Shown here: one piece after another, positions 346 to 64,000 of the stretch | Layout: every line of letters starts with the position of its first letter | Numbering within the stretch: position 1 is the stretch's first letter | Origin: Anadara kagoshimensis | Lineage: Eukaryota; Mollusca; Bivalvia; Arcoida; Arcidae | DNA length: 64,000 nt | Direction of reading: 5' to 3' | NCBI GenBank assembly: GCA_021292105.1 | Contig: CM037871.1 | Span: 22,006,057-22,070,056, forward strand | Notes under the pieces: generated by a model | Seen by the model: the letters and a program-made list of their open reading frames with translations, nothing else | The model's database searches: none | What the model was told of the DNA's origin: nothing | Position numbers and translations under genes: made by a program

Positions 346-1725
346 GTTGTTATTGGCGTAGTTGTTGGTGGTGTAGGTGTTGATGTTGTTACTGCTTCTG
401 TTGAATTTATTGATACGTTTGCGACTGCAGTAACTGATACTGCATCTGTTGCTTTTCCCTGGAAGTATATAAGACATTATGAAGTAGACATTGTTGCTCA
501 TGAAAGATTTTATAACAATCAATCAGAAAATCGCCGAAATTGATTATCACAATTGTCTTAAGCGCTAATTAACTTGAACATATATAGTACAATGTTTTTT
601 ATATTAGACTTTAGAAGATCCCAATGCCTTTTTCTATTTAAAAATATGACAACCAAAATACATTGATCTTTGACCGGGACCGTCATGCACTGCCATGTGC
701 ACATCTATTAAATATGAAGACTTTCGTATAGTTCAAGAAATATTAACATACACATGAACGTTCGTACGGAGAGACAGAGAAATAAATGCAACACGTCCAT
801 GTACACTGGGGTAAAAAGAAACCATTTATGATGCTTACTAGAATCGAACTTTGTAATTCTTTGTCGCGACACCATTGTACGATTGTACATAATATGGGGT
901 CTATTAGTACGGGTGATTGACAAAATAATCACTCACAATTTTGCCCCTCGTGATGTACCATTTTGAAAACGAATGAGATACACTGAAATTTGTGGCAGCC
1001 ATTTTAAAATTTAAAATGGAAAATTCACATTATACAATAGGGAAAAGTTTCTTGTTATCTCAATTTAATCTAAACTTATAACAATCATACTAGTTATTGG
1101 TATTTGAAAGATCTTGGGTTTCCACCAATGGTAACAATGATCGACACACTATTGTCGTTAGCATCCATGCTCACTTACTTGGTGGAATTTCCGATATTTA
1201 ACTTAATTTGTCAGTTTTCACTTTGCTTTTGACGCTGTGTTTTGGACATGGATGGGTATGTTAGTTTTTTTTTACTAAAAATTAGACGTCAATGACAAGG
1301 AATACTGCACTACTAGTATTACCAACCGCATTTAGCATCTTTTTAAAAAGGTCTTTAATTAAACTTTCTATTTATACTTTGCTATCGCCAATTCGTACAA
1401 TAGTGTTACAGTTGTTCAAGGAATGGTTTACAAACAATGAACCACAAGCAAATTACCATTACAATAGCTTATATTGAGGTTTTAGAAGTACATTTGATAA
1501 AAACCAAAACTTATAATACCAAATGACTTGAAATGAGTGTCTAGTACATAGAACCAAAATAACATCTACGTATTCTATGTGTAAAATAGGAAGAGAGGTC
1601 TGCTTTATATAAACCACTTAGCTGTATTAGAACAAGCATGGAATCATGCAGCTTTCTCGTTATTGTCAGAAATATACTATAATTGTCTAAATTTCCTGCA
1701 GATTGAAATTTTAAATTTCTCAAAA
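346..1725. other. No gene seen; one dispersed-repeat fragment
   Basis: No ORF over 75 codons and no recognisable exon. Positions about 1160-1265 contain a diverged plus-strand copy of a dispersed repeat also found at 32500-32650 and, inverted, at 61125-61255. Shared blocks are TTTTCACTTTGCTTnTTG and GGACATGGATnGGnATG. The rest is AT-rich unique-looking DNA. Confidence 0.5.
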
Positions 1726-1728
1726 ACT

Positions 1729-1908
1729 AAGGTATACAAAGTATTTCCTAAGTTTAATTTGGTAAAATATATTTTGGTCCTTTGGGTAGCTTTTCAACAT
1801 CTTCAAAATAATTTTGGTTTCATAATTTTGGTCCAAGCACTACTGATGAGGAATTGTATTCCGAAACGGCCGTCTAGTGCTGTAAAATTAAAACTGGTAT
1901 AATATGCA
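1729..1908 (+). mobile_element. Hammerhead-bearing retroelement fragment (Penelope-like LTR or retrozyme)
   Basis: About 180 bp that recurs, diverged, at 36780-36946. Shared blocks include AAAATATATTTTGGTnCTTT, TTTTGGTTTCATAATTTTG and CCAAGCACTACTGA. A complete hammerhead ribozyme core lies at 1836-1881. Known: hammerhead motifs of this minimal type, with a very short palindromic stem III, occur in Penelope-like retroelements and metazoan retrozymes. Inferred: this is a solo remnant of such an element. No reverse transcriptase reading frame adjoins it; a decayed one lies 30 kb away at 31600-32450. Confidence 0.7.
1836..1881 (+). ncRNA. Type I hammerhead ribozyme, intact core
   Basis: All parts are visible. 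Stem I 5' strand AGCACTA (1836-1842); core CTGATGA (1843-1849); stem II GGAAT/ATTCC (1850-1854 with 1858-1862) closed by a TGT loop; GAAA (1863-1866), whose last A pairs with T1873 in stem III; stem III is the self-complementary ACGGCCGT (1866-1873); cleavage-site C at 1874; stem I 3' strand TAGTGCT (1875-1881), a perfect 7-bp complement of the 5' strand. Stem III has no loop, so self-cleavage would need a dimer or a transcript carrying two copies, as proposed for Penelope-like hammerheads. Activity is not shown by sequence alone. Confidence 0.85.
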
Positions 1909-2509
1909 TTTAGATACACGGTTAAGGTAATTTCTTACTGTCCCGGAATCAATATCCCGGTATGCCATGGTCAAAAAGATATTTTTCAGGCACACGTGAA
2001 AATTACTACTAGTAATTGTTGATCGTAGTTGTGATTGTATCTTCTCTTCTTAGAAACTTTAGGTATATAAGCTATGGGACAATTTTTTGACACGATGGAG
2101 GAATTGTTCGATTGTTTTGACTACATATACAATGTTTGGTACAAATTCTTCAGCAGGCGATAAGAACTGAGTTAAGAACCATTGACTCCTGACTGTCTAG
2201 TACTTTCCAGTTTACTTAATATCTATCTTTGATTCAATTTGGTCCACTTAAACACACAGTCTCAACAATTTTTCAACAAAGTAATAATGAACACTAATTG
2301 ATGGTTGAGAACCATTGTCTCCACACTGTTGAATACTTTACAGTTTAGTTATCTTTGATTCAATTTGGTCCATTCAAACACGTAATCACTTAAATTAAAT
2401 AATAATGACAACTAATTGATGTAGTTTCTTTTTTTATTTAGCAATGTAACGAAACTTTTAAAAATGGATTAATTTGGTAAGCTGCCAAACTGGTGTTGTT
2501 AAAATCAGT

Positions 2510-9726: not shown

Positions 9727-11910
9727 TTACAGTAGGAAGAACTCGTATTCCCACATTTCTGGGGAGTATACGTCATTGATACACCTTTTGAGTTGTGTCT
9801 CGGCTAACCTTTTCTGTATATAATGTCTGGTCTTATCAACTAAGTCATCTGTTATGTCTCCCAACAAATTGTCCTGATGACCCTTAGTAAGAAATGTCCA
9901 CGACTGTATGATCGGCATTTGTTTTACAAGGTACAAGTTGTTGACGAAGAAGCTTGGCAGACGACGGTTCTGTAGCGCGCCATGGAGGAATATGATACAA
10001 TCCGATAGCCGGTCCTGTAACTTGTCAAAGTTCCAGAGTTGTGGAGAACTTTCTAACAGTAAGTGATATACAATTGTCTCTAATACATATGGCGACACCT
10101 CTCCTCGATCTAGAAGGGTTTTCTTTGTTACGGATGTAAGCAAAGTCTTCAAAATAGACAAACACACACGATGACAACTATGAACACCAGCCATTTCCAT
10201 TTTCTGATCGATTCGTTCCAAGTAACTGGACTCGAGTTCTCCAAACGACAAACTCCATATGATATCAGATCTGTCAATCTGTGAGTCAATATCGTCTGAA
10301 AGGGAATTAGGTTTTCTCTTGAAATCCATATTCACCCACGGCGGAACTGCGTAGACATAAACCGGATGTAACCAAGTATCGACTGCAACTGGAAACGACG
10401 GAATGAGACGAACTTTGATTTCCGGTAAATTTAATCCAATCAAATTCTTCGTGTCAATGGATAGAGTAAGATCCGGAGTGGCAGATCTTTGAATTCTAAA
10501 CGGTAATCTGTCAATGAGTGAACGTGTTTCAGTGTAAAGCCTCTGCAAAGCCCTGTCAACAAATTCTTCTGTCACACTTAGAACTTCCTGTGAAGATATG
10601 CAACATAATCTAGACCCATTTAATGAAAACGATTTCAGACACTTGGATATCCACGGCGCTCTAGCAGTTTGTGTCTGTTTAGCACAAAGAATGAGTTTTC
10701 CTGGTGGTATGTTATTACATTGATTTTGATCAATAAACATACACGGATTAAAGTCAACACCTTGTATGACCATATGGACATCAAATTGATTCACAGGATA
10801 TATTTTCAACCCCTTCCTTATACTTCCTGCGCTGCTGAATTTGACAAATCTTAATCCATGCATCGAACCAATAACCTCGAGTTCTTTCTGTATCAGAACG
10901 AGACTATAACCGACAACCAGAGATGCAACATACCACTGGTCATACTGTATAGAACAGTTCTCTATATAAAACTGTAACAAGGTTTTGATATGACCCCCAT
11001 AATTGTGTATCATGCCTTCATCTACATCACAGAAATAAGGGTTCATTGAGTTATGAACAACTTCTTGGAATTCTTTAATGGACTTTTTTCTTTCTCCATC
11101 GTCATAGTCCCCGGTGCCGTTTAAAGCGGGGGAACTTCCGCTCCGAGCACGCCTGATGTGCCGAGTTGCGTCTAACCTTGGAGAAGAAGCATTATTGTTT
11201 CTGCGCAAGACCGGAATGTTTGACGGAATATTTTGACAAATCAAAAACTTGTCAAGTTCTATAAAGAAAAAGTCAATGGTGTTTTTCAAAAACCAGCTGA
11301 CATCTGAAACAGTCGGACATATTGTGTATCTGTATGAATCTCTTTTGATGTATCTCTGTGAGACTATGTAGTTGCTGATAGTATTTGATGAACGACAACT
11401 GCGTGCAGTCCCGTTATCAGCCTTCGAGTCGTCTACATTATTTGAAGTGTTTTCGTCTTCCTGGAGTGAATTGTTGGGTGTTTTCCCATTTTGAACAACT
11501 TTAGAGTCCACCACATTCACTTTCTTCAATATTTCTTTCCAGTTAAACTGTATTGCCTTTCGAATCAAATATCTAACCAACAAGACGGTAAATGAAAGTA
11601 GCATTATCACAGAAAACCAATATAAAACATTCAATGGATACAGATCTACTTCCGTCCTCCATTCTGTTTTACTGCCACATCCGGGTTGTTCTATAATGAC
11701 ATTAGTCTCGTTGTCACGAGAACAAAACATACACTGAAACATTTCTGCCATTTCATGCCCACCATATTGTCGTATATAATATTCAATCAGATCTTTCCAA
11801 TTCCAGGTGCTATCAGTTTTTATGTCTAACTCATATGGTCCTGTTTGGTTGATACATCTCCAAACGTGAACTCTGAACAAAAATCTGTAAAACTCCGAGT
11901 AGTTAAACAT
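9727..11910 (-). CDS. Membrane-anchored Mab-21/ITPRIP-like protein
   Basis: A 727-residue protein in one exon. It opens with a short extracellular-type region rich in Cys, Trp and N-glycosylation sequons, then one membrane segment (about residues 93-115, LYWFSVIMLLSFTVLLVRYL), a polar low-complexity linker, and a C-terminal Mab-21 domain. The nucleotidyltransferase signature is visible: a GS pair at 362-363, then NQFDVHM at 374-380, and the third acidic residue in PDLTLS (Asp480). Compared with the NEFDV of cGAS, the first acidic residue is Gln375 (codon 10786-10788, CAA); Asp377 is kept. Family knowledge: Mab-21 proteins include cGAS-like receptors and the single-pass ITPRIP group; the architecture fits ITPRIP-like. 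A nucleotide-dependent reaction is doubtful with Gln375. Start: ATG at 11910 sits in GCCGCCATG, a strong Kozak match; an in-frame ATG at 11934 has a weak context and would add 8 residues. A splice acceptor lies just upstream. Confidence 0.9.
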   Translation of the reverse strand: MFNYSEFYRFLFRVHVWRCINQTGPYELDIKTDSTWNWKDLIEYYIRQYGGHEMAEMFQCMFCSRDNETNVIIEQPGCGSKTEWRTEVDLYPLNVLYWFSVIMLLSFTVLLVRYLIRKAIQFNWKEILKKVNVVDSKVVQNGKTPNNSLQEDENTSNNVDDSKADNGTARSCRSSNTISNYIVSQRYIKRDSYRYTICPTVSDVSWFLKNTIDFFFIELDKFLICQNIPSNIPVLRRNNNASSPRLDATRHIRRARSGSSPALNGTGDYDDGERKKSIKEFQEVVHNSMNPYFCDVDEGMIHNYGGHIKTLLQFYIENCSIQYDQWYVASLVVGYSLVLIQKELEVIGSMHGLRFVKFSSAGSIRKGLKIYPVNQFDVHMVIQGVDFNPCMFIDQNQCNNIPPGKLILCAKQTQTARAPWISKCLKSFSLNGSRLCCISSQEVLSVTEEFVDRALQRLYTETRSLIDRLPFRIQRSATPDLTLSIDTKNLIGLNLPEIKVRLIPSFPVAVDTWLHPVYVYAVPPWVNMDFKRKPNSLSDDIDSQIDRSDIIWSLSFGELESSYLERIDQKMEMAGVHSCHRVCLSILKTLLTSVTKKTLLDRGEVSPYVLETIVYHLLLESSPQLWNFDKLQDRLSDCIIFLHGALQNRRLPSFFVNNLYLVKQMPIIQSWTFLTKGHQDNLLGDITDDLVDKTRHYIQKRLAETQLKRCINDVYSPEMWEYEFFLL

Positions 11911-11937
11911 GGCGGCCAATATCTTAGTAAACATCAA

Positions 11938-16809: not shown

Positions 16810-18285
16810 TTCAATTGGACCAACGATATTTTCATGAATCTTGCAAATGCGAATATGGACCAACAGTATTCACCATGCCATCCCGCTACTGTCTTAATGT
16901 CGATATTTGTCATCTACAGGACCAACAATATTTGCCATGCAAACGCTCAATTGAACCAACCATATTTGTCATCACGCAGACCAAAGCTCAAATAGGACCA
17001 ACAATATTGGTCATCTTGCCGACCAAAGTTCAACTGGACCAACAATATTTGTCATCTTGCCGACCAAACTCAACTGGACAAACAATATTTGTTAGTTTGC
17101 CAACCAAAGCTCAACTGGACAAACAATATTGCAATCGTCAAAGCTCAACTGGACCAACAATATTTATCATCTAGCCAAAGCTCAACTTGACCATCAATAT
17201 CTGTCATCATGCCAAAGCTGAACTAGACCAACAATATCTGTCATCATGCCAAAGTTCGACTGGACCAACAATATTTGCCTTCATGCCAAAGCTCTACTGG
17301 ACCAACAATATCTGTCATCATACCAAAGCTGAACTGGACCAAAAATATATGTCATCTTGCCAAAGCTCAGCTGGACCAACAACATATGTCATCTTGCCAA
17401 CGCTCAACTGCGCCAACAATATTCGCATCTTGCCAAAGCTTTACTGGACCAACAATATTCGCATCTTGCCAAAGCTAACCTGGGCCAACAATATTTGACA
17501 TCATGCCATATCCAAACTGGACCAACAATATATGTCATCATACCAAAGCTGAACTGGACCAAAAATATCTGTCATCATACCAAAGCTGAACTGGATCAAC
17601 AATATCTGTCATCTTGCCAAAGCTCAGCTGGACCAACTATATATGTCATCTTACCAACGCTCAACTGGACCAACAATTTCTGTCATGTCATCTTGCCAAA
17701 GTTCGGCTGGACCAACAATATATGTCATCTTGCCAACGCTCAATTGGGCCAACAATATTCGCATCTTGCCAAAGCTCAACTGGGCCAACAATATTTGACA
17801 TCATGCCAAAGCTGAACTGGACCAACAATATCTGTCATCTTGCCAAAGCTCAGCTGGACCAACAATACATGTCATCTTGCCAACGCTCAACTGGACCAAC
17901 AATATATGTCATCTTGTCAAAGCTCAACTGGGCCAACAATATTTGGCATCATGCCAAAGCTGAACTGGACCAACAATATGGCATCTTGCTAAAGCTCAGC
18001 TGGACCAACAATATATGTCATTTTGCCAAAGCTCAGCTGGACCAACAATATATGTCATCTTGCCAACGCTCAGCTGGACCAACAATACATGTCATCTTGC
18101 CAACGCTCAACTGGACCAACAATATATGTCATCTTGTCAAAGCTCAACTGGGCCAACAATATTTGGCATCATGCCAAAGCTGAACTGAACCAACAATATG
18201 TCATCTTGCCAAAGCTGAACTGGACCATCAATATCAGCTCAACTTGACCAACAATATTTGCCTTCTTTCCAATGCTCTTATGTGC
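16810..18285. repeat. 37-bp minisatellite, about 38-40 copies
   Basis: Consensus unit CAAAGCTCAACTGGACCAAC then AATATnTGTCATCTTGC. Because 37 is not a multiple of three and the unit lacks plus-strand stops, all three plus frames stay open over long stretches, which explains the overlapping ORFs of 67-189 codons (rich in QQYLSSCQSSTGPTI). Copies at the left edge are diverged. Near 17850-18180 a multi-unit block appears twice (TGGACCAACAATACATGTCA recurs at about 17855 and 18075), showing block duplication. Confidence 0.95.
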
Positions 18286-27009: not shown

Positions 27010-27870
27010 ATGGAGGATTTGAGGATGAGTTACAGAGATCCACAATCACTGTTATTTGAAGCCATATTTGGTGGAAACACGTTACAAGTCAAACAGCTAA
27101 TAAATAGCGGAATAGATAAAAATACCGTACTTCATAGCCCTGTACGATGGGAAGGCGCCTCAGTATTAGGAACGGCAGCCTTTGAAGGACATATCGATAT
27201 TGTGAAATTCCTCGTTGACGTCGGTACAGCAGTTAATTTTACAGACCCGTGTCTGGGTAGGAGTGCTCTCCATTGGGCCTGCATGGGTAATCAGTACCAA
27301 GTAGTGAAGTATCTTCTAAATCACGGAGCAGACGTTAACTGTACTGATAAAGACAAAGTAACGCCCATCATACGGGCAACTATTAATAACAACTTAGATA
27401 TTACCGCGCTACTTATCGAACGTGGCGCCAAAGTAAACTGTACCGATCGCCTGCGATCGTCCCCGCTCCATTACGCCAGTGTACACGGCAACTCGAAACT
27501 CGTACAGACGGTTATAAGAGCCGGATGTATCCATAATGGACACGCTATATTAGGTAAAGGGACTCCTCTGGCCAACTTATTTCATCATAATGACAGAATT
27601 AGTTGTTTTTTGCTGCTAGAAGCCGGCTACGATATTTCCAATGATTTGTCATGGATATTACAGTTAAAGGACGTCAACGCCAATGACAGCCATCTTAACA
27701 ATGATATCATAGACGGGGTCTTTAGACGAAAGGGGAATCCTTTATCATTAATGAGCAGTTGTAGATTGGCTGTACGTTCACAGATGGGCGGGGTTTGTGT
27801 CGATGGTAAAATACAGAAACTTGATGTTCCAAGTAGAATAAAACAGTATTTACTATTCGAGATAGAGTGA
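27010..27870 (+). CDS. Ankyrin-repeat and SOCS-box protein (ASB-like)
   Basis: 286 residues from the ATG at 27010, ending at TGA. Five to six ankyrin repeats fill residues about 10-225; the clearest are LGTAAFEGHIDIVKFLVDVG, SALHWACMGNQYQVVKYLLN and SPLHYASVHGNSKLVQTVI. The C-terminus is a SOCS box: BC-box SLMSSCRLAV (246-255, Leu247 and Cys251 in the expected LxxxC spacing), then LDVP at 271-274 in place of a Cul5-box LPxP, and the typical end IKQYLLFEI. Known: ASB proteins recruit Elongin B/C and Cullin-5 and present substrates through the ankyrin stack. Inferred: a cytosolic E3 substrate receptor; the substrate is unknown and the exact ASB number is not assignable. The exon begins at 27002 after an acceptor; the reading frame is open back to it, so a few upstream residues may exist. 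Confidence 0.88.
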   Translation: MEDLRMSYRDPQSLLFEAIFGGNTLQVKQLINSGIDKNTVLHSPVRWEGASVLGTAAFEGHIDIVKFLVDVGTAVNFTDPCLGRSALHWACMGNQYQVVKYLLNHGADVNCTDKDKVTPIIRATINNNLDITALLIERGAKVNCTDRLRSSPLHYASVHGNSKLVQTVIRAGCIHNGHAILGKGTPLANLFHHNDRISCFLLLEAGYDISNDLSWILQLKDVNANDSHLNNDIIDGVFRRKGNPLSLMSSCRLAVRSQMGGVCVDGKIQKLDVPSRIKQYLLFEIE

Positions 27871-27978
27871 GAGTTAGTACTGTTCGGGATAGTATAGAAC
27901 GCAACGTGAAACATCAAATAAACATTACTGTTCAAGATGGACTGATGTAAAATAATTGTACTGCATCAGACTGAAAAC

Positions 27979-28840
27979 AACACTGAAACACAATGTACCT
28001 TACCAAATCCAAGAGTAAAAACTAACAACACTGAAACACAATGTACCTTACCAAATCCAAGAGTAGAAACTAACAACACTGAAACACAATGTACCTTACC
28101 AAATCCAAGAGTAAAAACTAACAACACTGAAACACAATGTACCTTACCAAATCCAAGAGTAGAAACTAACAACACTGAAACACAATGTACCTTACCAAAT
28201 CCAAGAGTAGAAACTAACAACACTGAAACACAATGTACCTTACCAAATCCAAGAGTAGAAACTAACAACACTGAAACACAATGTACCTTACCAAATCCAA
28301 GAGTAGAAACTAACAACACTGAAACACAATGTACCTTACCAAATCCAAGAGTAGAAACTAACAACACTGAAACACAATGTACCTTACCAAATCCAAGAGT
28401 AGAAACTAACAACACTGAAACACAATGTACCTTACCAAATCCAAGAGTAGAAACTAACAACACTGAAACACAATGTACCTTACCAAATCCAAGAGTAGAA
28501 ACTAACAACACTGAAACACAATGTACCTTACCAAATCCAAGAGTAGAAACTAACAACACTGAAACACAATGTACCTTACCAAATCCAAGAGTAGAAACTA
28601 ACAACACTGAAACACAATGTACCTTACCAAATCCAAGAGTAGAAACTAACAACACTGAAACACAATGTACCTTACCAAATCCAAGAGTAAAAACTAACAA
28701 CACTGAAACACAATGTACCTTACCAAATCCAAGAGTAGAAACTAACAACACTGAAACACAATGTACCTTACCAAATCCAAGAGTAAAAACTAACAACACT
28801 GAAACACAATGTACCTTACCAAATCCAAGAGTAGAAACTA
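27979..28840. repeat. 48-bp minisatellite, 18 near-identical copies
   Basis: Unit AACACTGAAACACAATGTAC then CTTACCAAATCCAAGAGTAG then AAACTAAC. Copies differ almost only at one site (GTAAAAAC or GTAGAAAC); in plus order the site reads A G A, then eleven G, then A G A G. It starts 108 bp after the SOCS-box stop codon. The 277-codon minus ORF is a by-product (48 = 16 codons). Each minus-strand unit contains TTTGGTAAG, a match to a 5' splice site. Confidence 0.98.
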
Positions 28841-33875: not shown

Positions 33876-36800
33876 CTACATCAAAACATAAACACAAGAT
33901 AATTATTAAGTACAGGCAATGTTTTGTTAAACTTGTATCAATTACAATCAATGGGTTTCACAGACCTACCATGACCAATACCCCTTAACATTTTTGTAGG
34001 ACATTTTGGAAAAAGTTCATGATACGAAATAACCTCATTTTTATGGAGAAACCTGAACTCATATGACTCCATATCCAATGGAAATAATTATTCTGAACAA
34101 ATGTTATTGGGGCACCACATGGTACAGCAGGGAACCCCATTCCTACAATGTTTTTCAGTGGCCAAGGAGTTAAGGTGTCGATAGCCTTGAAACCAAATGT
34201 GTCTCACCAATGTGAGTTCGATCCCAGTTGGCTTGGAGGTTTTTCTTGTCATAAGCCTTTAATGGTTGGTTGATGGACTGAGTGGTTGTGTTTATCATCT
34301 GTGACATTGAAGGCAAATGTGTTAGCACTCTACATGCTCTAAGATCATCACAAGTGTGCTAGCACTTTTAAGATCATCTCAAGTGTACAACAAAACAGAT
34401 AAGAAACACTTGTAAAAACTCACATGTGCTTGTGATTAAGATTTATCTTTGAGAAATAATAAGAAAATTTGTCTTGTGACAAATAGCTCTTAAAACAAAT
34501 CTCTTGATAAACCAAAATACTTTTAATCTATAAGATCTTTGGTTTATACAAGTTTTACTGTATAATGACATACTATACATAACATACTAACCAGTCCCTC
34601 TAGTATTAACTTCTTTCTTTTGTTGGTTTCTTTCTGTTGTCCAAAATCCCTTTCATCAAGTTTCTGCAGAACAGAAATACACTAAGTAATTGTATAGGGA
34701 GGTAGAACCAATAAATGGGAGGAGTTTATATATATGACCACCATAAATACTTGATATGAATCAGAAATATCTCTAAATGATGTATAGACATCTTTTATTT
34801 AACCTTATTTATAGAGATATAGATATATATTTTCATGTTTTAGAGATAATGTTCATTATTAAGCAATTTTGTTTAGATATATTTCTAAATAGATTTTAAT
34901 ACATGTATGTTTGATTTAGCTACATGTATATCCCTAAATGATTTAGATATATCTTTAACTATTTGAGATATACGGAAAAATTGCCCTCCATAACTTTTTT
35001 ATATTAGAACTATAGAATTACAGTTCTAGAATGAATAAAAGCACATTCTAACTAATTGCTTCATGTGATTTAAAGAACCTTTTTGTAGTCAAGGTGTTAG
35101 CCTTGAAAAAAGTGTCTCAACATGGTTAGACCCTGGTTTACCCCAAGTGAGAAAAGTTTTTCTTTGTTGTAGTCCTTTACTGGTAGGCCTAGTACCAATT
35201 TAGTGGGCTAAGTAGTCCGTGGTGTTTATTTGGGACTATGTGGGCGAATGCACTAGTACTCTAAAGGCCAACATAAGTATGCTCTAGTATAAAATGCAGA
35301 TCAGAAATACTTGCATAAAATATATTTTGTAACACATAGCTGAAATTTTTTGGTGTGATTGAATGGGATTTTATGTCTCAGTCGAGAGTATTTCACTCAT
35401 ATCTAGAATCACCAGCTATAATTGAAGTGGCAGAAATTTCAACTTTTGCCGTGTGCTCAGGGCAATGTGCAGGGAGGGTTCTTTAATGTACCACACCTGT
35501 CATGGTAGGGGGCATAGGATTTTAGAGTCTCTTCCTGTGACTTTCATTTCTAAATCCCAAATGCTTAGCAAAAGAACAGTCGCTTCCTATTTTCAGGTCT
35601 TGGTCACGCCCTGACTTGGATTTGAACAGATATGAAGTAAGCACTCTACCAGCTAAGCCACAGTCATCTCTGATGTCATGTAAAACAACATTTAACCAAC
35701 TGTGTGACCTTAATAACACTAGAAGATCTTAAACAAATATCCTAGTATTAACTTACAATTTCTGCTTCCCGTTTTGAGACAGCAACTTCTGTTAATATTT
35801 TCATCATTTCTTTCTCATCTGTTTTATATTCTTCCATCTTCTTGTCTGAATTCAGAAAGCAGTTAATATACATTTTATTATATACACATACAAATATACT
35901 ATACACAATATATAATATACATTGTATACTGTAAAAGTATTTAATTTCAGGCTATAGGAAATTTAGAGATATCTGCATTGTTAAATTTTTGCATTTTTTA
36001 AATATGTACTATAACACAATAAGCATAATATAATTTCCGCTTGGTATAAATTTTCGCACAAGACTAATGACCGGGAAATAAGTGAAAATTAGTACACCGC
36101 GAAAATAAATTCATTTACAGTAATATACTAATAATAATATACAACACATGATATACATATAGCAGTATATGTTATATAATATACATGTATTACTAAATGT
36201 ACAGTCCAACCTGACTTAAAGGTCACCTCTATAAATGGACCACCTGCCTATAAAGGCCAGTAGAATTGTATCCCAACTGTTCTTTATTCGTATTATTTGA
36301 ACCTGTATATAAAGGCCACCTGTCAATAAAGGCCACTTTTACTGGTTCCTTAGGTGGCCTTTATAGACAGGTTTGACTGTATTTCAAAATAAAGTTTCTA
36401 GAATATCTAGTGTTTTTACAGGTTACACATTTCTTTTTTTATATTAAATAACAAATTTATGACATTACTCAATATTAATCACATTTGCAGCTGTTACTAA
36501 CTTATTACTGTAATAACTTCAAAGTAAAAGGATATACAATTATCACATATAGATTTCTTTAATTTAACATCTCATTCAATAACAAATTTATGACATCACT
36601 CAATATCAATCACAAATGCAGCTTATGCAGTTTTAACTACAAAGTACAAGGATATACATTCATTTATCATATAAAGATTTAACATCTAGTCTGTACCTGA
36701 TAATTATCGATTTACTTTATGTATATATATTAGATCTATATATAATAAAATGAAGTAAAGATGTTTTAGGTATAAGCCCTGATGCAAAGTATTTCTTTAG

Positions 36801-39800
36801 GTAAATTTGTTAAAATATATTTTGGTTCTTTGGGTATCTCTTCAACTTCTTGAAAACATTTTGGTTTCATAATTTTGATCCAAGCACTACTGACAAGAAA
36901 TTGTATTCCAAAACGGCCCTCTAGTGAAAACTGGTATAATATGTAATTATGTCCAAGTCAAAACTCTTACAAAGAAATCAGTTCTTGCAAGGCTATCTTT
37001 AAATTATTTGTGCATGGGGCCAAAGGTCTTGTTATTGTGAAAATTAGCAGTGCAATAGTCTAAATTGATACAAAAAAGACACAGAAATTTGGCCAGGCAG
37101 TTTAGATGATTACACTAAAATGTTACGCATAATGCACAACGGGCTTTGAGTTATTGCAATAGCTTGTCGGAGCTTAAAACTTGACTTATCCATTATTAAT
37201 ATTACATAGATGTATACTCACTGACAAAAGCTTCTATAGCATGGACTAACTTAATATCAAACTGTGTTACCAAAGTAATGGACATACCACCTCTACCTAA
37301 AATTTAAAACAATACAATGCTTGTACAATAAAACCCGGATTTATTGCCAAAAAAATACATTGCAGGTATGTCAGCCAAATATTTTATATGTGATCAATTT
37401 CAAAAGAATTGCCAGCACCATTCCTTTTTGGAATGAACATATTTTGATTATAAACCCAATATTGCTAATACATGTACAAAACTTGAATGCAAAAGTTTAA
37501 CATTGTGTTAAAGATACTTTGTAGGTCGATGGTAAAAAATCTAATAAATCGTGATGCTAATCATAATTCCTATTTCTTTACTTTACCACTGTAGCAGCTT
37601 AGTTGGTAGAGTGCTCACCAAGTAAGTGGGAGGTCATGGGTTTGAACCCTGAACAGGTCTGACCCAAGACTTAAAAGAGGGAAGTGACTGTTCTTTCTCC
37701 AAGCACTCAGCATTATGATATGAATGTCATCCTTCTTTTGGATGGGAACTTAATACAAACAAAATCTCTTGTCATGGTAGGTTTGGCACGATAAACAGGC
37801 AAAATATTTCCACCTTCTTCTATAGCTGTTGATATCTCAATATAAGTGAAATATTCGTGATTGGGATGTTCAACACTTCTTTATTTGTTCTACCCAATCT
37901 GTGGGTCTGTTTGGTACAACTCCAAATATTACTACTGTATTTCCAAAAATTGAGTGCACATGGTTTTTAATATTTATTTCTTTTAATTGAAAATATTTCC
38001 ATTAAACTATCAATAAAATGCATTTAAAATGCACTGACCTTACCAAATTATATTTTTGATTAAAAACATTATTGTTCCGTTCTCCTGCACATAGGGAAAT
38101 TTTGCGAACATTTTGGAAATTTGATCAAGTTTATACACCAGTTGGACCTCATTCAAAGTTACAACAGGGCATTTAGGGTCAGGTAGGTCATTGTTGTTCG
38201 GGGTTTTTCCAGGTGTGATCATCATGAATATTCCAATTATGACATAACATTTATAGTTGTTCCAAGTAAGAAGGTACAGAAGGGATAATTTTGACATAGT
38301 CATATTCGTTTTCTTCAAAAGTTCGAAAATTGCTCTATGTACAGAATTAAGTTCACATTTTCATGAATGAAAATTATTTTTTCCTATTAGGTCAGTATAT
38401 TTTTTATTAAGTTTTGACAAAATTTGTGAGTTTGTTGGAAAATACAACTTTATTTTTGCATTTTCCATGTGCACTGAATTTATGGAAATACATGTACAGT
38501 AGTATCTTATACATAACAGCATGAGCCATTTTGCCAACTCTGTGTACATAATCTGTAGCTCTGCTTGATACTACCCCTCAACCATCATCCATTTCTTATA
38601 CATACCAACAAAAGGGGCTATTAAGCCAACTCTGTGTACACAGGACTGCTTGGTACTCACCCCTAACCCTGCCCCACCCCACCCCTTATTTCATTATCTT
38701 ATACATACCAGCACGAGCTGTTCGACCAACTCTGTGTACATAGTCTTTAGGTCTGTTTGGTACATTATGATTGATAATCAGATCAACAGTTGGAATATCT
38801 AATCCTCTACAATAATAAAGAAAAATTAATAGCATTCTATAATTAAAATCATAGTTACCCATTTCTGATTAGGAGCCTAAGTGGCTGTATGGTCTAAACA
38901 ACCAGCTCATAAATTAAATCACATTTCATTGCCAAAGTTCAAAATTCCCAGGCATATCCTATTACAAGAAAATTTGTCAGTTTGCTTTTGGAAGTTGGTG
39001 TTTTTTTCAGGCACTCTTATTTCCTCCATCATGTTAACATTCAAGTATTGTATGTCCACAGAGTAATATGTTTATTTAAAACGTAAATAGATTTTATGTG
39101 TTTTGTATTACATTAAGGGTGGACTGGGGAGTGCAGGTTACTCCTTAAGGGAGGTTAAAATTAAGAATATATAGCATGTTTTAGTATTACATACCGACTG
39201 GCGACATCAGTAGCTATTAATATGTTGACTTGATTTGACTTGAATCGAGCTAATGATGCTAAACGTTCTTTCTGTCTGATCATAGAGTGAAGTACAACAC
39301 TTTGTATACCCAAATCTGCAAACACCATACCAAGAATCTGTGTATATCTACAATTGGAAATAAATTAAAATGTTAGTCATTAACAAAATTAATTACAGAA
39401 TGAAAAATATTTTTAAAAGGGGTGTAGTGGAGTTTGGTAATGGTGTTTTATGCCTCTGTTTAGATTCTTTGGCTTATATACAGGCAGTCAGTTCTGGGAT
39501 GATGGAGGAAATTGGAATGACAGTGAAAACCAATAAACAAACTTTCTCACATTAGGATTTGTCTTAGTGGGATTTTTAACCTAGATGGTGAAGGCTGTGA
39601 TTTGTTTTAGATGACTGATGACCTTCTCTTTAAAAGATAATTTGTCTTAAAAATGTACTTTTAGGGTCATGCTGGATACATTTTCAAAATGGTATCAAAA
39701 TAATAAGCAAACTTAACTATAAAACAAATTAATTAAACATCCACACCTTAATAAAGAAATTGACAACATATTGCTTTTTCCTTAGGCAGTTAATCCTCTT

Positions 39801-42800
39801 ATTTATGAATATAATTGACAGAAGAACTGTTGGTCAGAGATTCAACTGACCAGTTGAATTATCAGTTAAATTGTAAACTTGTTTGCTAAATTATTTATAA
39901 AATTACAACTCAAATCAAAATAAAAAGATAAATAGTAAAGAGGTAAAACTAGATTTACTCAAAACTTAACCACAGTAAGCTTGAATAGATGAGCCAAGGT
40001 TAGGTCACATAGAGTATGTTTATGAGACAAAATTAACACTTTTGGGATCAACAGTAAAAGAGCCAATTCTAGATTAAATGCTGTATCAATGTATAATATC
40101 TTACTTGCATGTATTTGTAAATATCATGATAGAGCTCCTAGGAAGTTTCTCTAAATATTTATCTACAATGTGTACTAAGTAGGCATCTTTAACATCAGCA
40201 GGCATTAGTACATAATACTGACTCAGTTCATCTACTGTAGCTGTTCTGTAAAAATAAAACAAAATACATGTTAATGACAAGACATGTTTGTGAAATTTAC
40301 ACACCTCATGAAAATAAGGTAAAAACAGAAGAATACTGGTAAAAGATTTTACTTGTGATGAAAAACTCTTACTACACTTACTGCAGGTAAAACATGTCCC
40401 CAAATCATTTTATCTAGTGCATAGCAAATGGACATACATATAAAAGAACTATGAAGATATGTGTAACTTGAATGTCCATTTTTCAGAACATCTTAGATGA
40501 TTGGATTGTAGTCAATAGTTTGTCTTGCTGATCTTTCTTATAAATTTTTTTTAAATTCAAAAACTTAAACACTCCTATAAATTGAAGTCTAGAGATGGGT
40601 GCTATTAAAATTTTCGTATTGTGATATACATATATTCTGATACACAGATGCTGTATCACGATATGTATCATAATATAGTATTTCAAAGGTGCAGAAAATA
40701 AAGACCTTTAACTTTTTGTTGATAACTCATCAAAATATTGTTGTTTGTACATCGTCAGACATCTTGATTTTATACCACGTTGTTATGGATGTCGTTTCCA
40801 TATCTTTATATGTGACGTAATGTGTTTATGGGAGACGTAATGTGTTTAAAAAGGAAGAAAAATAAATTCATTAAGTAGACAATTTGGAACTAGACTAATT
40901 AATGACACAAGGTTTTAGAGTTTATTTTAATCGACACTTCAGTCAGAACATGATGGACTTATGTTTCGTGCATGAAATGTGTTTATATTAGGGCTATATG
41001 GAGCACTGTGAAAATTTCAAACACCATCCAGTTTACTCAATTTGAAAAAAATATATATATCGGTATTATCGGATCTGGACAGTCGTATCGTAATAGGTAT
41101 GTATTGGGAAATCTAGTCTTGATATATCGGTATACCAATAATACTGCACATCACTATTGAAGTCTAAATTGAAAAATTATGAACTTCCAGTTAAAATCTG
41201 TCCTAAGCCCATAGACTGAGAGTACATTACTTCCCCTTGGATGGGACATCAGTTCATTAAAGGATATTTGCCAGTACCCATTTCTTTGGTCGGTGGGTGG
41301 GCAAACCACACACCTTTGAATCATGAGCCCTCAAACCTAACCACTCAGCCACCTGTCTCCGCTTCAGTTAACAAGTTTGACTGTATATGGTACCTATTCC
41401 GACACACATAATAATAAAATCGCCCAAACGAACCTTTATGTGACCTCTTTAGATCCAAGATTTTAGTCCAAGTCAGAAAATTTGTACTAATGAAAAATAT
41501 ACATATATCAAGATTACAAGAACATACTGTTTATAGTTATGTTTCCAACCATGCCTTGATTCTCTTTATAAGAATAATTTTATTTCTATCAGTTAAACTT
41601 ACTCAGACTTCTGTTGCCAGAAAAATGGAGTATTCATGGCTACATCTTGAAGATCGTTCAGTGATTTTGTCATGGTAGCACTAAATAATAATGTCTGTCT
41701 TTTCTTTGGTAAAACTTTGAACACTGTTTCCAACTGCTCACCAAAATCATCTTCTATTAACCTGTCTGCTTCATCTAATACCTAAGGGAGATAAAAGTCT
41801 GTTATTAAAAATAAAGGATTTGTCTCCCTTTGATAAACATGCTGTTACAGCCTGTATCTTCATAGTGGTATGTCGGGGATTAGATACAGTAAAATGTATT
41901 ATGGACAGACAGACAGACAGAAGACAGACCAAACAATACAGGTACATACAAATACTTTGTGGTGGAATAATCATTTATGCAATAATATTTTATTAGTATT
42001 TAAGAAGATTTACAACTAGCAAAATTTAAATATGGAATGTTGCAGTTAAATACCTTATACGTCTATAGATCGATATTTCGTAGGAACCACTGCGGTAGCT
42101 CAGTTGGTAGAGTGCTCGCTTCGTAAATGGGAGGTCGTGGGTTCGAACCCCGGCCGAGTCTGACCCAAGACTTGAAAGTGGGTAGTGACTGTTCTTTCCC
42201 CAAGCACTCTGCATTACGAAATGAAATGAAATGAAATGAAATGCACAGTTCTTTCGGATGGGAACTTAAAATAAACGAGGTCCTGTGTCACGGTGGGCTT
42301 GGCATGCTAAAGAACCCTGCTGTATAATGCCATCAGCGCAACGCACAGGCAAAATTTTTACACCTTCGCCTATAGCTGGCGACGTCTCGATATAGGTGAA
42401 ATATTCTTGACTGGGACGTTAAACACCATTACTCAACTCAACTCATATTTCGTAGGCCTTTACATACAGGTTTTACTGTATAAACAAGGAGAATCTGAAA
42501 ATGTTTGATTGACCTCAACCAAAGTTTCTATAAAAAGAATCTAGAGGCTGTTTAACAGTATCAGTGTTATAATATTATAACTAGGGCTGGGATAATACAG
42601 GAATGCTGTGATATGATATGTATCGTGATATACAATTTGTATCATGATATATTAGTTATACAGGTAAATGTTATCATATAAAGGCACTTTTATATGTTCA
42701 AAAATTTATTTTTGAATCACATTAAATGGCAATATTTCCATTCTTATCCAATCTGATATCAAATAATGACTTATGCAACCACATATAATTTATATATAAC

Positions 42801-52812: not shown

Positions 52813-55800
52813 CTGAAACAGAAAAAAAGCATACAGTTGACTATAAAATAGTACATGTATATAGACAAGATGACTGACAAGATACAACAGCAATGTATAG
52901 ACTATTTTCGCAAGTTTCCTTTCTTGCAGTTCTTTTATTACAGAACTGACTGACTTGTTATAAGTGAAAGAATCATGACTGTGGTATCACTCTGCTTTTC
53001 TCATAGAATTTACCTATTTTCTATTTAAATACCTGTACCTTTGTACTGTGGAGAAGGAAATGAAAGAACATAGACTAACTTGGAAAGAACTGGAGAGGAT
53101 GGCACAAAATAGAGAAAAGTGGAAAATCTAGTCCTTGCCCTATGTGCCCCCGGTCAAAAAAAGGACTAGGTAGGTAGGTACTAGGTAGGTACCTTTTTAT
53201 GTCACCAATAGGGAACTCTGATCTATAATTACACCTAGTGTTTTATATGTACCAATATATATGTTATAAATATAAAATCATTAATGCAAGTGACTAACAG
53301 TTTGTGTATCGAGGCTTTAGTGTTGGGTGTGTTGAATGGTGTTAAATGTCTCAGTCAAGATTATTTCACTCATATCAGTCATGTCTGGTTTGTTGGATGA
53401 AACCCAAATATCTGAATAAAACCTCAGACTTCAGCAAGCAAACTGAAAACTTTTTCACATTAGGATCTCATCACTATGGTAGCTCAGTTGGTAGAGTGCT
53501 TGTTCTGTATATGGTAGGTGTGGATTCAAACTCCAGCTAGGTCTGATCAAGACTTCAAAATCAAAAGTGACTGCTTGCCAAGCACTCTGCATTTTAAAGA
53601 ACCCTGTCTGGCAAATTGCCCTAAATGCAACACAAAGGTAAAAATTTCTGCCACTTTACCTATAGCTGGTGGTGTCTCAATATAAGTGACATATTCCAGA
53701 CTGGGATGTAAAACCCCATTTATTCAATCAATCACATTAGGATCTGCCCTACTAGCATTTCAATCCAAGTATTGAGAGACTGTGATCTGAAAACTGGCAT
53801 TAACATAAAGTTACATACAAAGTTAAAGGTGGTTTTTGTTGTTAGGGATTGTGTGAAATATCTAAGGTTATTTTTAACTTCTACTATTAAACTATGGACC
53901 TATAAAAAGCTTGTTACAATAAGTCTCTCTTATAAAAGAAATTTGGTGTAAAGGTATATGCAAAAAATAAATCCTATGTCATGTGGAAAAGAACCAGAGG
54001 CTCAGTGTGGCTGAGCCTGTATCGCTCACCTGACTAAAATGCTTTTAAAGCAAATTTGTATTCCAGTGATGAAAAAATGCACTGTTTATATCAGACAGAA
54101 TGGCTAAGGAAATCACTGTAGAACTATATGTACCATTCACAGTTTTTTTCAATCTGATTAAAATCACATCTCTCACTTGCTCCCCCATTTTTGATATAGA
54201 CGCGGAGTGGGAGATCTGAGGAAACACCGTTTAGGGGCATATGTGAATGAGCTATTGTTGTAACATTTATTGTCCAATGAAATTTCAGCTTCCGAGATTT
54301 TGAAAGTGTTTTGCCTTTATTGTAAATGAAACGGGCAATTTGAATTTGTCAATCTAAGTAAAAGACCTTCCATACATCATTACCATAAAGTTTGGTTCTA
54401 TTTGCTTCAGTAGCTTTAGAGGAGATAGCAAATACATGTATATGCTATTCCCATAGGGTTAAACTATGATCTGTGCTGGCAGCCATCTTTTTTTGTGGAT
54501 CAAAAAAATGTCCACAATCTAAGTAAAGAACCATCTATACATCATTCCTGTAAAGTTTGATTCAATTTGCTTTAGTAGCTTCAAAGGAAATAGCAAATAT
54601 ATGCTTTTCCCATAGGGTCCAATGTGAAACAATGTTCTCCACTGGCAGCCATGTTTTATGACAGATCAGGAAAATTTTGGCAATCTATGTAAAGGACCTT
54701 CTATACATCATTCCTGTAAAGTTTGGTTCAATTTGCTTCAGTCATTTCTGAAGACATAGTCAAAAATGTGTTTTTCCCATAAAGTCCAATGTTAAACTAT
54801 CTTTTGCGCTGACAGCCATGTTTTTTGGCAGATCAGAAAATTTTTGGCAATCTATGTAAAGGACCTTTTATACATCATTCCTGTAAAGTTTGGTTCAATT
54901 TGCTTCAGTCATTTCTGAGGACATAGTCAAAAATGTGTTTTTCCCATAGGGTCCAATGTTAAACTATCGTCTACCCTGGCGGCCATGTTTTTTGGCGGAT
55001 CAAAAAAATTTGGGCAATCTATGTAAAGGACCTTCTATACATCATTCCTGTAAAGTTTGGTTCAATTTGCTTCAGTCATTTCTGAGGACATAGTCAAAAA
55101 TGCGTTTTTCCCATAGGGTCCAATGTTAAACTACCTTTTGCGCTGGCAGCCATGTTTTTTGGCCAATCAGGAAAATTTTGGCAATCTATGTAAAGGACCT
55201 TCTATACATCATTCCTGTAAAGTTTGGTTCAATTTGCTTCCCAAGCTTCAGAGGAAATAGCATATATATGCTTTTCCCATAGGGTCCAATGTTAAACTAT
55301 CTTCTGCGCTGGCGGCCATGTTTTTTGGTGGATCAGAAAAATTTTGGCAATCTAAGTAAAGGACCTTCTATACATCATTTCTGTAAAGTTTGGTTAAATT
55401 CGCTTCAGTCATTTCTGAGGAGATAGCCAAAATGCGTTTTTCCCATAGGGTCCCATGTTAAACTACCTTTTGCTCTGGCAGCCATGTTTTTTGGCCAATC
55501 AGAAAAATTTTGGCAATCTATGTAAAGGACCTCCAATACATCATTCCTCTAAAGTTTGGTTAAGTTTGCTTCAATAGTTTCAGAGGAGATAGCCAAAATG
55601 TGTTTTTCCCATAGGCTCCAATGTTAAACTATGTTCCCCGCTGGCAGCCATATTTTTAGGCGGATCAGAAAAATTTGGGCAATCTTTGCAAAAGACCTTC
55701 TATACATTATTCCTGGAAAGTTTAATTGAATTCGCTTCAGTTGTTTCAGAGGAGATAGCCAAAATGTGCGTTTTCCCATAGGGCCCAATGTTAAACTTTG

Positions 55801-58800
55801 TTTGGCCCTGGCGGCCATTTTTTTTGGCGGATCAGAAAAGTTTGGGCAATCTTAGTAAATGACCTTGCATACATTATTCCTGTAAAGTTTGGTTCAAATT
55901 GGCTCTGTGGTTTCAAAGAAGATAGCAAATATATGCTTTTCCCATAGGGTCCAATGTTAAACTATCTTCTGCGCTGGCAGCCATGTTTTTTGGCGGATCA
56001 AAAAAATTTCGGCAATCTAAGTAAAGGACCTTCCATACATCATTCCTGTAAAGTTTGGTTAAAATTGGTTCAGGGGTTTCAGAGGAGATAGCCAAAATGT
56101 GAAAAGTTTACAGACGGACTGACAGACTGACAGACTGACGGACGGACTGACGGACGGACTGACGGACGACGGACGCTGAGTGATGGCAAAAGCTCACATG
56201 GCCTTTAGGCCAGGTGAGCTAAAAAGGTTATGTACCTGGGGTGGATATGGAAGAAGCTTACTACTTAAGCAGTGTAAAGTTTTTTTTCAAATGTTAAAAA
56301 CAAATGTAGAGTATATTCCACTAACCTTCAGTGTATTATCCCAGCTTCCTGTACATAGAGCTGTACCATCAGGTGACACCCCTAAACAACTGACTCTGTT
56401 GTCATGGGCGTACAATATTGTAACTCTATTACCTTTAAGAACATCCCATATATTAACAGTATAGTCGTTGTAGCCACCAAATAAAAGTCGACCTGTCAAA
56501 AAGTAATAATAATACATTATATAATAAACAATAATATAAAGTGTATACCATAATATATTTTATATCAAAAAGGTTATTTTACAAGAGCATAAACCCACAG
56601 ACTTTGAAGGATTGATAAATGAAATGAACTGTTTTATCAAATGTTTCTGCTACCAAGATGTAATACTATCGCCTTTTACACCAGGATAATTATGTCCCGA
56701 GTGGGATTCGAACCTAGGTGGTTAGAGGCACTTAGATCCATATACATGTATTTTAAACCACTTTGCTACTGAGGACAGGAGAGGGAGACTGTTAAGTTTT
56801 TCAATTAATTATAGAGATTCTTAACTGGCTGCAAAATTACTTGTAATTATTGGTAGTGTTTGTTGTATATGTGCCTACCTTAATGATATGGTAAAGAGAA
56901 TGTCTGAGTGTAGTTTTACACTCAAGTCAATAGTATTTCACTTTAATAAATATCAAGGCAGTCACTGTAGTTCAAGAATGGTGAGAAAACTGTAGTCCCT
57001 AGAGAAAGTATTTGCTGATCAAAACATACTTGTGATACCGGAAAAATGACATTTACAACATGATTCTGCTCTGGTGCCATTTCAAAAGAAAAACTACAAA
57101 TTATCCTGCACCATAAAACATATTTAAAAGCCAACATAATAGACAAATGAACAAAAACAAAGATTTGTGAGGTCCAATTTCTTGGCAACAACTTACCACT
57201 TATAGAAAAATCTACAGAGTTGCAACCAAATATTATACTTTCTTTTTTGTAACAGTTAACCTCTCTATCAGCTCTCAAGTCAAAAAGTCGACACTACAAT
57301 GTATAAGCAACCAGAAATAGTATCAAAATAACACATACATGTAATACTCTACCCAAAGATTATAAATTTATTTTACGAAACATTTCAAATTAGGTACAAG
57401 ATACATTTCAAGGGATAATTTTGAAAAGTGTATTATTTTATTGTTTTGTAATACATTCTTCCATATACCTTTTAATATCATATTATATATAGTTTAGATG
57501 TGAATAAGTTAATTCAGTGAATTCAGATTCCCTGCCAGCAGGTTCTATTTTGTCACTAATGTTCAAAGGGCAATAACTCCCAGGAAAATAAGCAAACCTA
57601 TTCAAGTTAATGATATGTGCATCTCTTATCAAAGCTAATGGTATGCACTAGGTTTCATAGTTTTGGAGAACTTGTGCAGACAAGAATTTCGGATGGAAGG
57701 AAGAACAGATGTAAACTCTAGTTTAAAATCCCACTCTTTCTCCGAAAGGCAAAGGATAAAAATTCCTGCTAAATATGTTCTGCAATCTAGAATGGCCAAT
57801 GCAAGATGTTTCTTGACATCCATGCTGCCGAAAAAGCCTTCTAATTTTCAATAACACCTTTCAAATACTCTTAACTATGAACCATAAATGTATTTGTTAT
57901 GTTTTATGTGATATTTTCATCCCTAAAGTTCTACAGGTACTGGTGTTGTACCTATTGTTGGCATCAATGCAAGACCTTTGTTGTATTTGGATAAAATGAA
58001 AAATTGTCTGTGATTTAAGTCTATTTTTCTTGTTCACATTGCATACATTTTTCCAAAATTATTATTGCATAAAAAGTATGATGGTCAGAATAGGTACACC
58101 ACCAGTACATACATGTATGCATACAGGTACTACAATGTACTATATTTCCTTTCCTAGTACATAGCCACTGGCTACTGATTTCTGATAAATTCTTTTGAAA
58201 AGTAACCAATTTTAGCAAAATTTTGAAAAAATTAAGAAGAACTATATTTTCACAATTTTCAGATTATTTATAATTTCAAAACTGTTATAACTGAATATAT
58301 CAAAGTATAAGTTAAATATAATTTTCCTTTACAAGAGTGCCCCGTGAGTAGGTGCCAAGTAGTTCAAGAACAAGTTAATGTCTTACCGTTGCATCATCTG
58401 ATCCTGTGGCAAAAGCATCACCACTAGGATAAAATCTAACACTGTTTATATCCGACTCATGTCCCTCAAACACCTGTACACATTCTCCTGTCCTCATGTC
58501 CCATACCATTGCTACTTTGTCACACCCCTTAAATACAAAATAAAGAAAGACATTAAAAAGTATAAAGTAATTTTATCTAGGTGTAAAAGCTCTGGATAGC
58601 ATGAAAACCCTGGTAACTATGAACCAAGTCTGTAAATAGGAAACTGATCACATGTAGGTTGATGACAGAGATAGTTTTTGACAATGTGCTGTCACCACAC
58701 ACCTCTTAAATTGTAGGAGCAACTTTCTTCCATGTAAAAATGATACTTGCTAGTGATATCTTGATAATTATAGTTTGCTAAATGAGAACGCTTTCTTCAT

Positions 58801-62240: not shown

Positions 62241-64000
62241 AAGAGGCCCATGGGCCTTATACGCTCACCTGATAACTAATGGCTAGCTGATAGATTTAAA
62301 GAAAACGTAAATACTAAACCCCAATGACTTTTTTCTTTACATCAAAATGATCATTGTATCAATACCTACAACATTCTAATATACATGCCTATACAAAACG
62401 TTTATAGTTTTCAAGATAATTAACCATTTCAGTATTGTTTTACATCTGTGACCTTGACCTTAAAACCCATGACCTTTTTCTATACAACGAAATGATTGTT
62501 TTATCGATACCTACAACATTCTAATATACATGCCTATACAAAAAGTTTATAGTTTTCGAGATAATTAACCATTTCGGTATTGTTTTCGCATCTGTGACCT
62601 TGACCTTTGAACCCATGACCTTATTCTATACATCAAAATGATCGTTGTATCAATACCTACAACATTCTAATATACATGCCTATACAAAAAGTTTATAGTT
62701 TTCGAGATAATTAACCATTTCAGTATTGATTCGCATCTGTGACCTTGACCTTTGAACCCATGACCTTTTTCTATACATCAAAATGATCCTCGTATCAATA
62801 CCTACAACATTCTAATATACATGCCTATACAAAAAGTTTATAGTTTTCGAGATAATTAACCATTTCGGTATTGTTTTCGCATCTGTGACCTTGACCTTTG
62901 AACCCATGACCTTTTTCTATGCATCAAAATGATCGTTGTATCAATACCTACAACATTCTAATATACATGCCTATACAAAAAGTTTATAGTTTTCGAGATA
63001 ATTAACCATTTCAGTATTGATTCGCATCTGTGACCTTGACCTTTGAACCCATGACCTTTTTCTATACATCAAAATGATCGTTGTATCAATACCTACAACA
63101 TTATAATATACATGCCTATACAAAAAGTTTATAGTTTTCGAGATTATTAACCATTTTAGTGTTGTTTCGCATCTGTGACCTTGACCTTTGAACCCATGAC
63201 CTTTTTCTATATATCAAAATGATTGTTGTATCAATACCTACAACATTCTAATATACATGCCTATACAAAAAGTTTATAGTTTTCGAGATAATTAACCATT
63301 TCAGTATTGATTCGCATCTGTGACCTTGACCTTTGAACCCATGACCTTTTTCTATACATCAAAATGATCGTTGTATCAATACCTACAACATTATAATATA
63401 CATGCCTATACAAAAAGTTTATAGTTTTCGAGATAATTAACCATTTCGGTATTGTTTTCGCATCTGTGACCTTGACCTTTGAACCCATGACCTTTTTCTA
63501 TACATCAAAATGATTGTTGTATCAATACCTACAACATTCTAATATACATGCCTATACAAAAAATTTATAGTTTTCGAGATAATTAATTATTTCCGTATTG
63601 TTTCGCATCTGTGACCTTTACCTTTGAACCCATGACCTTTTTCTATACATCAAAATGATCGTCGTATCAATACCTACAACATTCTAATATATATGCCTAT
63701 ACAAAAAGTTTATAGTTTTCGAGATAATTAACCATTTCTGTATTGATTCGCATCTGTGACCTTGACCTTTGAACCCATGACCTTTTTCTATACATCAAAA
63801 TGATCCTCGTATCAATACCTACATTATTCTAATATACATGCCTATACAAAAAGTTTATAGTTTTCAAGATAATTAACCATTCCGGTGTTGTTTCGCATCT
63901 GTGACCTTGACCTTTGAACCCATGACCTTTTTCTATACATCAAAATGATTGTTGTATCAATACCTACAACATTCTAATATACATGCCTATACAAAAAGTT
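62241..64000 (+). mobile_element. Bivalve 'ACAAGAGGCCC' element with 145-bp tandem array, cut by the window edge
   Basis: Begins ACAAGAGGCCCATGGGCCTT then ATACGCTCACCTGAT. From about 62400 a 145-146-bp unit is repeated at least 11 times; the GACCTTGACCTTTGAACCC block starts at 62450, 62596, 62741, 62887, 63032, 63177, 63322, 63468, 63613, 63758 and 63903. The unit also has TATACAAAAAGTTTATAGTT and ATACCTACAACATTCTAATA. The array runs off the right end. It is the inverted, larger relative of 21280-22356. Short minus ORFs in it are repeat products. Confidence 0.9.

Follow-up and report, generated by a model that had tools for sequence, protein, structure and literature searches.

Metazoan non-LTR retrozymes (Mytilus galloprovincialis, Acropora millepora and Ambystoma; Cervera and de la Pena 2020, PMC7229834) are, according to the available parts of their description, AT-rich elements without LTRs that form tandem units of 150-450 bp with one type I hammerhead ribozyme each; in the mussel, the units measure about 350-390 bp and number about 5,000 copies. 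In this current study, a 64,000-nt stretch of the Anadara kagoshimensis genome (GCA_021292105.1, contig CM037871.1, positions 22,006,057 to 22,070,056; hereafter the window) was analyzed. The element found there likewise contains a type I hammerhead, is AT-rich, and recurs in thousands of copies with a unit of 339 bp, a length at which coding capacity is not expected; no LTR was found in the copies sampled. This likeness is one of described features. A fixed 3' end combined with 5' truncation, as seen here, was not found in the available parts of the published retrozyme descriptions (PMC7229834).

Plant LTR retrozymes, as far as the accessible text of their report goes (PMC4918200), are also non-autonomous and hammerhead-bearing, but carry a type III hammerhead, an LTR, a PBS, a PPT, and a 4-bp target duplication, whereas the element here has a type I hammerhead and no clear short duplication (its flank matches resemble the control). 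Penelope-like elements (PLEs) with minimal hammerheads resemble it in the hammerhead, an internal start downstream of the cut, an optional tail of 30-40 bp, and an ATT site; however, PLEs encode a reverse transcriptase and a GIY-YIG endonuclease, whereas the element here consists of back-to-back 339-bp units with no PLE frame (PMC11167929). The distance from cut to start also differs, being about 85-92 nt in the PLE studied (start 111-118 bp and cut 26 bp into the frame; PMC11167929) and about 36 nt here. We conclude, with a probability of about 85%, that the window holds a decayed copy of a non-autonomous, non-LTR retrozyme that was copied from an unbroken template with a fixed internal start.

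The hammerhead and its repeat unit

The first-pass annotation had described a structurally complete hammerhead on the forward strand at positions 1836-1881. When both strands of the window were scanned with a descriptor (stem I of at least 4 bp, stem II of at least 3, stem III of at least 2), this stretch was the sole match, and all elements were found where they had been placed. Stem I, of 7 bp, is formed by AGCACTA (1836-1842) and TAGTGCT (1875-1881). The catalytic CTGATGA (1843-1849) is followed by a 5-bp stem II (1850-1854 paired with 1858-1862) with the loop TGT, and by the catalytic GAAA (1863-1866). The palindrome ACGGCCGT (1866-1873) would give a 2-bp stem III with a GGCC tetraloop in cis, or an 8-bp helix between two copies. 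C1874 is presumably C17, and cleavage is predicted between 1874 and 1875 by homology to type I hammerheads. In the predicted fold, an outer stem I (stem Ib) pairs 1823-1830 with 1883-1890, and an internal loop (1831-1833) is present together with the TGT loop. The order of these elements is that of a complete type I hammerhead. The earlier boundaries, correct for the elements within them, were nevertheless too narrow for the whole element (about 1660-1911) and slightly so for the ribozyme, which spans 1823-1890 when the predicted outer stem is included.

A descriptor match was also obtained in 2 of 300 dinucleotide-shuffled controls. The covariance-model check proposed in the first-pass annotation gave a match, as Rfam model RF00163 (Hammerhead_1) aligned to 1837-1880, but the score of 28.1 bits (E 1e-5, 66 nt scanned) was below the gathering score of 34 bits. 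For this reason, a scan of the whole window at the gathering score missed 1836-1881; it was missed as well when 801 nt were scanned at E<=10. Among four other loci, the model reported a single core in L003, which has five, also at 28.1 bits, and none in L067, L089, or L032. Over the whole genome, RF00163 yielded 0 matches at E <= 0.001, a result that is uninformative because control genomes likewise yielded none. The consensus of the model in the alignment, GAAACGcgCGUC, has a palindromic, loopless stem III, and such a stem III is thus usual for the family. The model and the window hammerhead agree in the core and in this loopless palindrome, and differ in that the consensus reads CGcgCG where the window reads CGGCCG.

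Decisive support for the hammerhead came from the genome-wide count of its core. In the 1,115,223,567 bases (1.1 Gb; 36 contigs) of this genome, the exact pattern CTGATGAG-N11-CGAAACGGCCGTC occurred 2,173 times on the forward and 2,066 times on the reverse strand (4,239 in all), whereas the same pattern reversed occurred 0 times on either strand; the exact core also had 0 matches in each of two separate collections of viral contigs and genome contigs. On contig C1, five cores of a tandem array with intact cores (310.5-312 kb) are spaced 339, 339, 339, and 338 bp apart, and its three 339-bp units are 98.5-98.8% identical to one another; judged by sequence, the cut of these units is predicted to fall after the C of CGGCCGTC. 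Exact junction-type sites, in which the tail is joined to a unit start, numbered 1,085 in the genome. The earlier assignment to type I hammerheads of the retrozyme or Penelope-like kind was right. Separately, at least 11 variants of the tail were seen among the matches listed at C1:41288567-41301755, irregularly spaced over about 13 kb; this cluster is perhaps a satellite-like derivative.

The copy in the window (about 1660-1911, forward strand) is a 5'-truncated single unit covering unit positions 80 to 339/2, with one predicted cut site, and is not itself a tandem array. It is 91% identical to a unit of the C1 array, with a GC content of 29% (34% in the array unit). Its 3' tail past the predicted cleavage site occupies 1875-1911, within which 1891-1909 differs from the common tail at 2 of 19 positions. 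A second, degenerate copy (36768-36948, forward strand; unit positions 150 to 2) has a mutated core (CTGACAA, CAAAA, and CCTC) and has lost the end of stem I. The two copies are 82.7% identical over 179 columns (36782-36949 against 1734-1912), in agreement with the earlier description of a dispersed repeat.

Other features were noted in the window. Another dispersed repeat lies at 2496-2627, and pieces resembling it occur near 48000, 48557, and 39410. Long tandem arrays occupy 16919-18234, 27976-28840, 54345-56101, and 62324-64000, with periods of 37, 48, 166, and 145, respectively. A tRNA-like stretch at 42089-42160 (30.7 bits in Rfam, no ARAGORN call) is perhaps a SINE or a pseudogene. Long coding-looking frames are found at 9727-11937 on the reverse strand (by eye, Mab-21/ITPR-interacting-like) and at 27010-27870 on the forward strand (by eye, ankyrin-repeat).

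The energy of the 58-nt fold was ordinary (z -1.03; 33 of 200 shuffles as good). For a single strand (1818-1900), an alternative pairing was predicted at -14.7 kcal/mol, compared with -10.2 kcal/mol for the cis hammerhead, in which the GGCC loop closes a stem III of two pairs, and -11.0 kcal/mol when stem III was omitted. By default, two strands folded together as a double hammerhead whose helix III has 8 bp; its predicted energy of -39.3 kcal/mol compares with 2 x -14.7 kcal/mol for the strands taken singly. These predicted energies fit the proposal, made previously from sequence, that the ribozyme acts as a dimer. The accompanying statement that stem III cannot close in cis went too far, as the cis fold is possible but unfavorable in the energy model. 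In the available parts of two reports (PMC7229834; PMC7761336), the type I hammerheads of invertebrates are said to carry a two-pair helix III that ends in a tetraloop and, for the most part, to cleave efficiently in monomeric form, and those of amphibians to require dimers; mussel hammerheads are said to lack most conserved letters of the loop-loop contact between helices I and II (PMC7229834). Cleavage here may take place in cis, or better in pairs through the palindromic stem III.

Ends and decay of the copies

Copy ends were examined in the window and in loci on contigs C1 and C2 fetched by core or junction. For the 3' ends, 90 unique copies with an exact intact core were counted. The 3' end fell 30-42 nt past the cleavage site in 77 of these (69 directly and 8 after further whole units) and elsewhere in 13, a single one of which stopped no more than 5 nt from the cut; in 83 of the 90, the copy included 28 nt or more of sequence past the cut. 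Copies ending at the cut would be present in this sample, because the core pattern reaches the last letter before the cut, whereas copies ending upstream would not. The 5' ends, in contrast, were variably truncated and scattered over the whole unit, and the copies measured between 74 and about 1,700 nt. Sampled copies mostly passed straight from the tail into unrelated flanks. If linear cleaved monomers had served as template, copies would end at the cut; continuity across it points to a ligated circle or an uncut multimer. We conclude that in most cases the template ran across the cut without a break and that copying started at a fixed internal site.

Of 83 unique copies, 52 have ATT at the start of the flank that follows ATATGTA. 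Since the unit itself also runs on with ATT after ATATGTA, a target preference and the end of copying are inseparable in this count. Target-site duplications were for the most part not observed: long flank matches were absent in 79 of 81 copies, and short matches resembled the control. In L009, a 32-bp flank repeat lies beside the element; it may be local, because the flank contains another similar repeat. In L082, a TA-rich 23-bp flank match lies about 19 nt off both ends.

Of 28 clean 5' ends from junction loci whose copies exceed one unit, 15 lay in the 41-nt ribozyme, where 3.4 would be expected if ends were uniform. These 28 remained from 40 loci after 10 were dropped for residual upstream similarity and 2 as duplicates; the flanks of L115 and L096 are doubtful. 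Under a null model of decaying length, the ribozyme stretch reached 15 in 13 of 3,000 draws, but at least one 41-nt stretch reached the observed best (16) in 423 of 3,000. Among the core-selected copies longer than one unit, a hand count placed 4 of 11 clean 5' ends inside the ribozyme or at its border. The 5' end of L055 lies exactly at the cut, as does that of L088 in one alignment but not under a stricter one. This clustering of 5' ends inside the ribozyme is suggestive only.

The conserved core beside mutated flanks had been taken as a sign of recent activity, a claim that the copies do not support. For this comparison, 40 loci were picked by the exact unit junction rather than by the core, of which 36 reached the tail (two pairs with common flanks included). 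In these 36 copies, mismatches to the column majority, gaps included, amounted to 4.9% in the 46-nt ribozyme and 5.3% elsewhere in unit positions 26-335. All catalytic positions were kept in 20 of the 36. One-sided changes in stem I broke the pair in 18 of 22 cases, and the single two-sided change was compensated. Moreover, the core of the second window copy is mutated. No selection on the ribozyme is visible in the decay of inserted copies, and since the ribozyme diverges like the rest of the copy, little can be said about activity from the intact core of any one copy. Recent spread, or array homogenization, is better indicated by the near-identity of the array units. The copy in the window is a decayed, probably dead-on-arrival insertion.

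Penelope-like frames and rival explanations

The genome was also searched for enzymes that might serve the element. At locus L133 (1518-3803, reverse strand), a Penelope-like frame of 762 aa with RVT_1 and GIY-YIG domains was found, and at least 50 GIY-YIG matches were obtained in the genome, where 150 of 248 candidates were scored. L133 holds a second GIY-YIG match, in the opposite orientation, about 3.2 kb from the frame. The best GIY-YIG match (L129, C22:287804-288031) is by eye a UvrC-like frame with an in-frame TGA; given this frame and its length of only 728,465 bp, C22 is perhaps a bacterial contig (symbiont or contaminant). The hammerhead pattern CTGANGA ... CGAAAC was absent from the retrieved DNA of L130-L132, and that of L133, in which about 200 nt were covered 5' of the frame, had one loose CTGANGA ... 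GAAA match only. A helper sharing the tail was sought among 361 genomic sites in which the 19-nt tail follows other upstream letters; of the 100 listed, 99 were by eye the same element with insertions or deletions and 1 was unclear, and no helper was found.

These frames bear on the possibility that the hammerhead belongs to the pseudo-LTR of an autonomous PLE with a minimal hammerhead and not to a separate retrozyme. The minimal palindromic stem III and the PLE-type frames in the genome would suit such an origin; however, the back-to-back 339-bp array units are too short for a coding PLE, and the retrieved DNA of L130-L133 lacks the hammerhead pattern apart from the loose match in L133, making this origin very unlikely. 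If the repeat were simple satellite DNA carrying a hammerhead relic, and had spread through recombination and segmental duplication rather than by reverse transcription, this would account for the tandem arrays, the irregular C1 cluster near 41.29 Mb, and those loci that share flanks like segmental duplicates (e.g. L121/L122 and L075/L076). Most sampled solo copies, in contrast, have unrelated flanks, a common 3' end, and scattered 5' ends, which is the pattern of reverse transcription, and a satellite origin is accordingly most improbable.

The element might also be a LINE-mobilized SINE in which the hammerhead is incidental, an explanation that overlaps the retrozyme reading as to the helper. 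A fixed 3' end with 5' truncation is consistent with it, and the accessible part of one report describes Nematostella hammerhead repeats with LINE-like 15-bp duplications (PMC4918200). Against it, the 3' ends show by eye neither an A tail nor simple sequence, flank duplications are mostly absent, and the listed tail sites belong almost entirely to the same element. Multimers of whole units are, moreover, unusual for SINEs. We therefore consider a SINE unlikely, and favor the non-LTR retrozyme.

A predicted cycle and its helper

For the retrozyme, the following cycle would fit these data. Tandem 339-bp units would be transcribed, and the hammerhead of each unit would cut the RNA, in cis or better pairwise, into monomers. 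These may then be circularized, as published for other animals, and a reverse transcriptase would presumably be supplied by another retroelement. Reverse transcription would begin at one fixed position inside the RNA, about 36 nt past the point where the ribozyme cuts, and nicked target DNA at ATT-like sites might serve as the primer. Copying for a variable distance on an unbroken template would leave a fixed 3' end, a variable 5' truncation, and sometimes several units; for the copy in the window, it would have halted after about 250 nt, with decay since. Copies could also arise in a circle-free manner from an uncut multimeric transcript, and uncut RNA was the main substrate of a Penelope-like element in vitro (PMC11167929).

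Animal retrozymes give rise to abundant self-cut circular RNAs, but which enzyme converts them back into DNA is not known. In the available parts of two reports (PMC7229834; PMC7761336), PLEs count as strong helper candidates, and the helper is said not to be deducible from the repeats; the second of these, a review, states that the repeats have no conserved motif pointing to it (PMC7761336). With a purified PLE, reverse transcription starts inside the RNA, downstream of the hammerhead and at a site that shares no homology with the cut DNA; ATT sites are preferred, the start sites explain the optional tail, and the ribozyme is dispensable for insertion in vitro (PMC11167929). The retrozyme ends, by analogy, resemble the PLE tail, which does not prove a PLE helper. 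We tentatively suggest, as a possibility that is still doubtful, that PLE enzymes mobilize animal retrozymes, with an ATT-primed start of reverse transcription fixed about 36 nt past the cut on a closed circle and a tendency to halt within the ribozyme when it is reached on a second round. The LINE-like duplications in Nematostella and the other cut-to-start distance in the one PLE studied lower its odds.

Among the listed results of a literature search, judged by title and start of abstract and lying mostly outside the subscription literature, no earlier report on retrozyme copy ends appeared, a result of little weight. The element belongs to a known kind, and its end pattern is the part worth following. 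If the PLE reading is true, the copy ends would record circle-templated priming of the PLE type, a question left open by the authors of the retrozyme reports. With thousands of copies whose 3' ends can be mapped, and with a template that ran on past the cut, the question of the helper becomes testable by setting these ends against those left by candidate enzymes.
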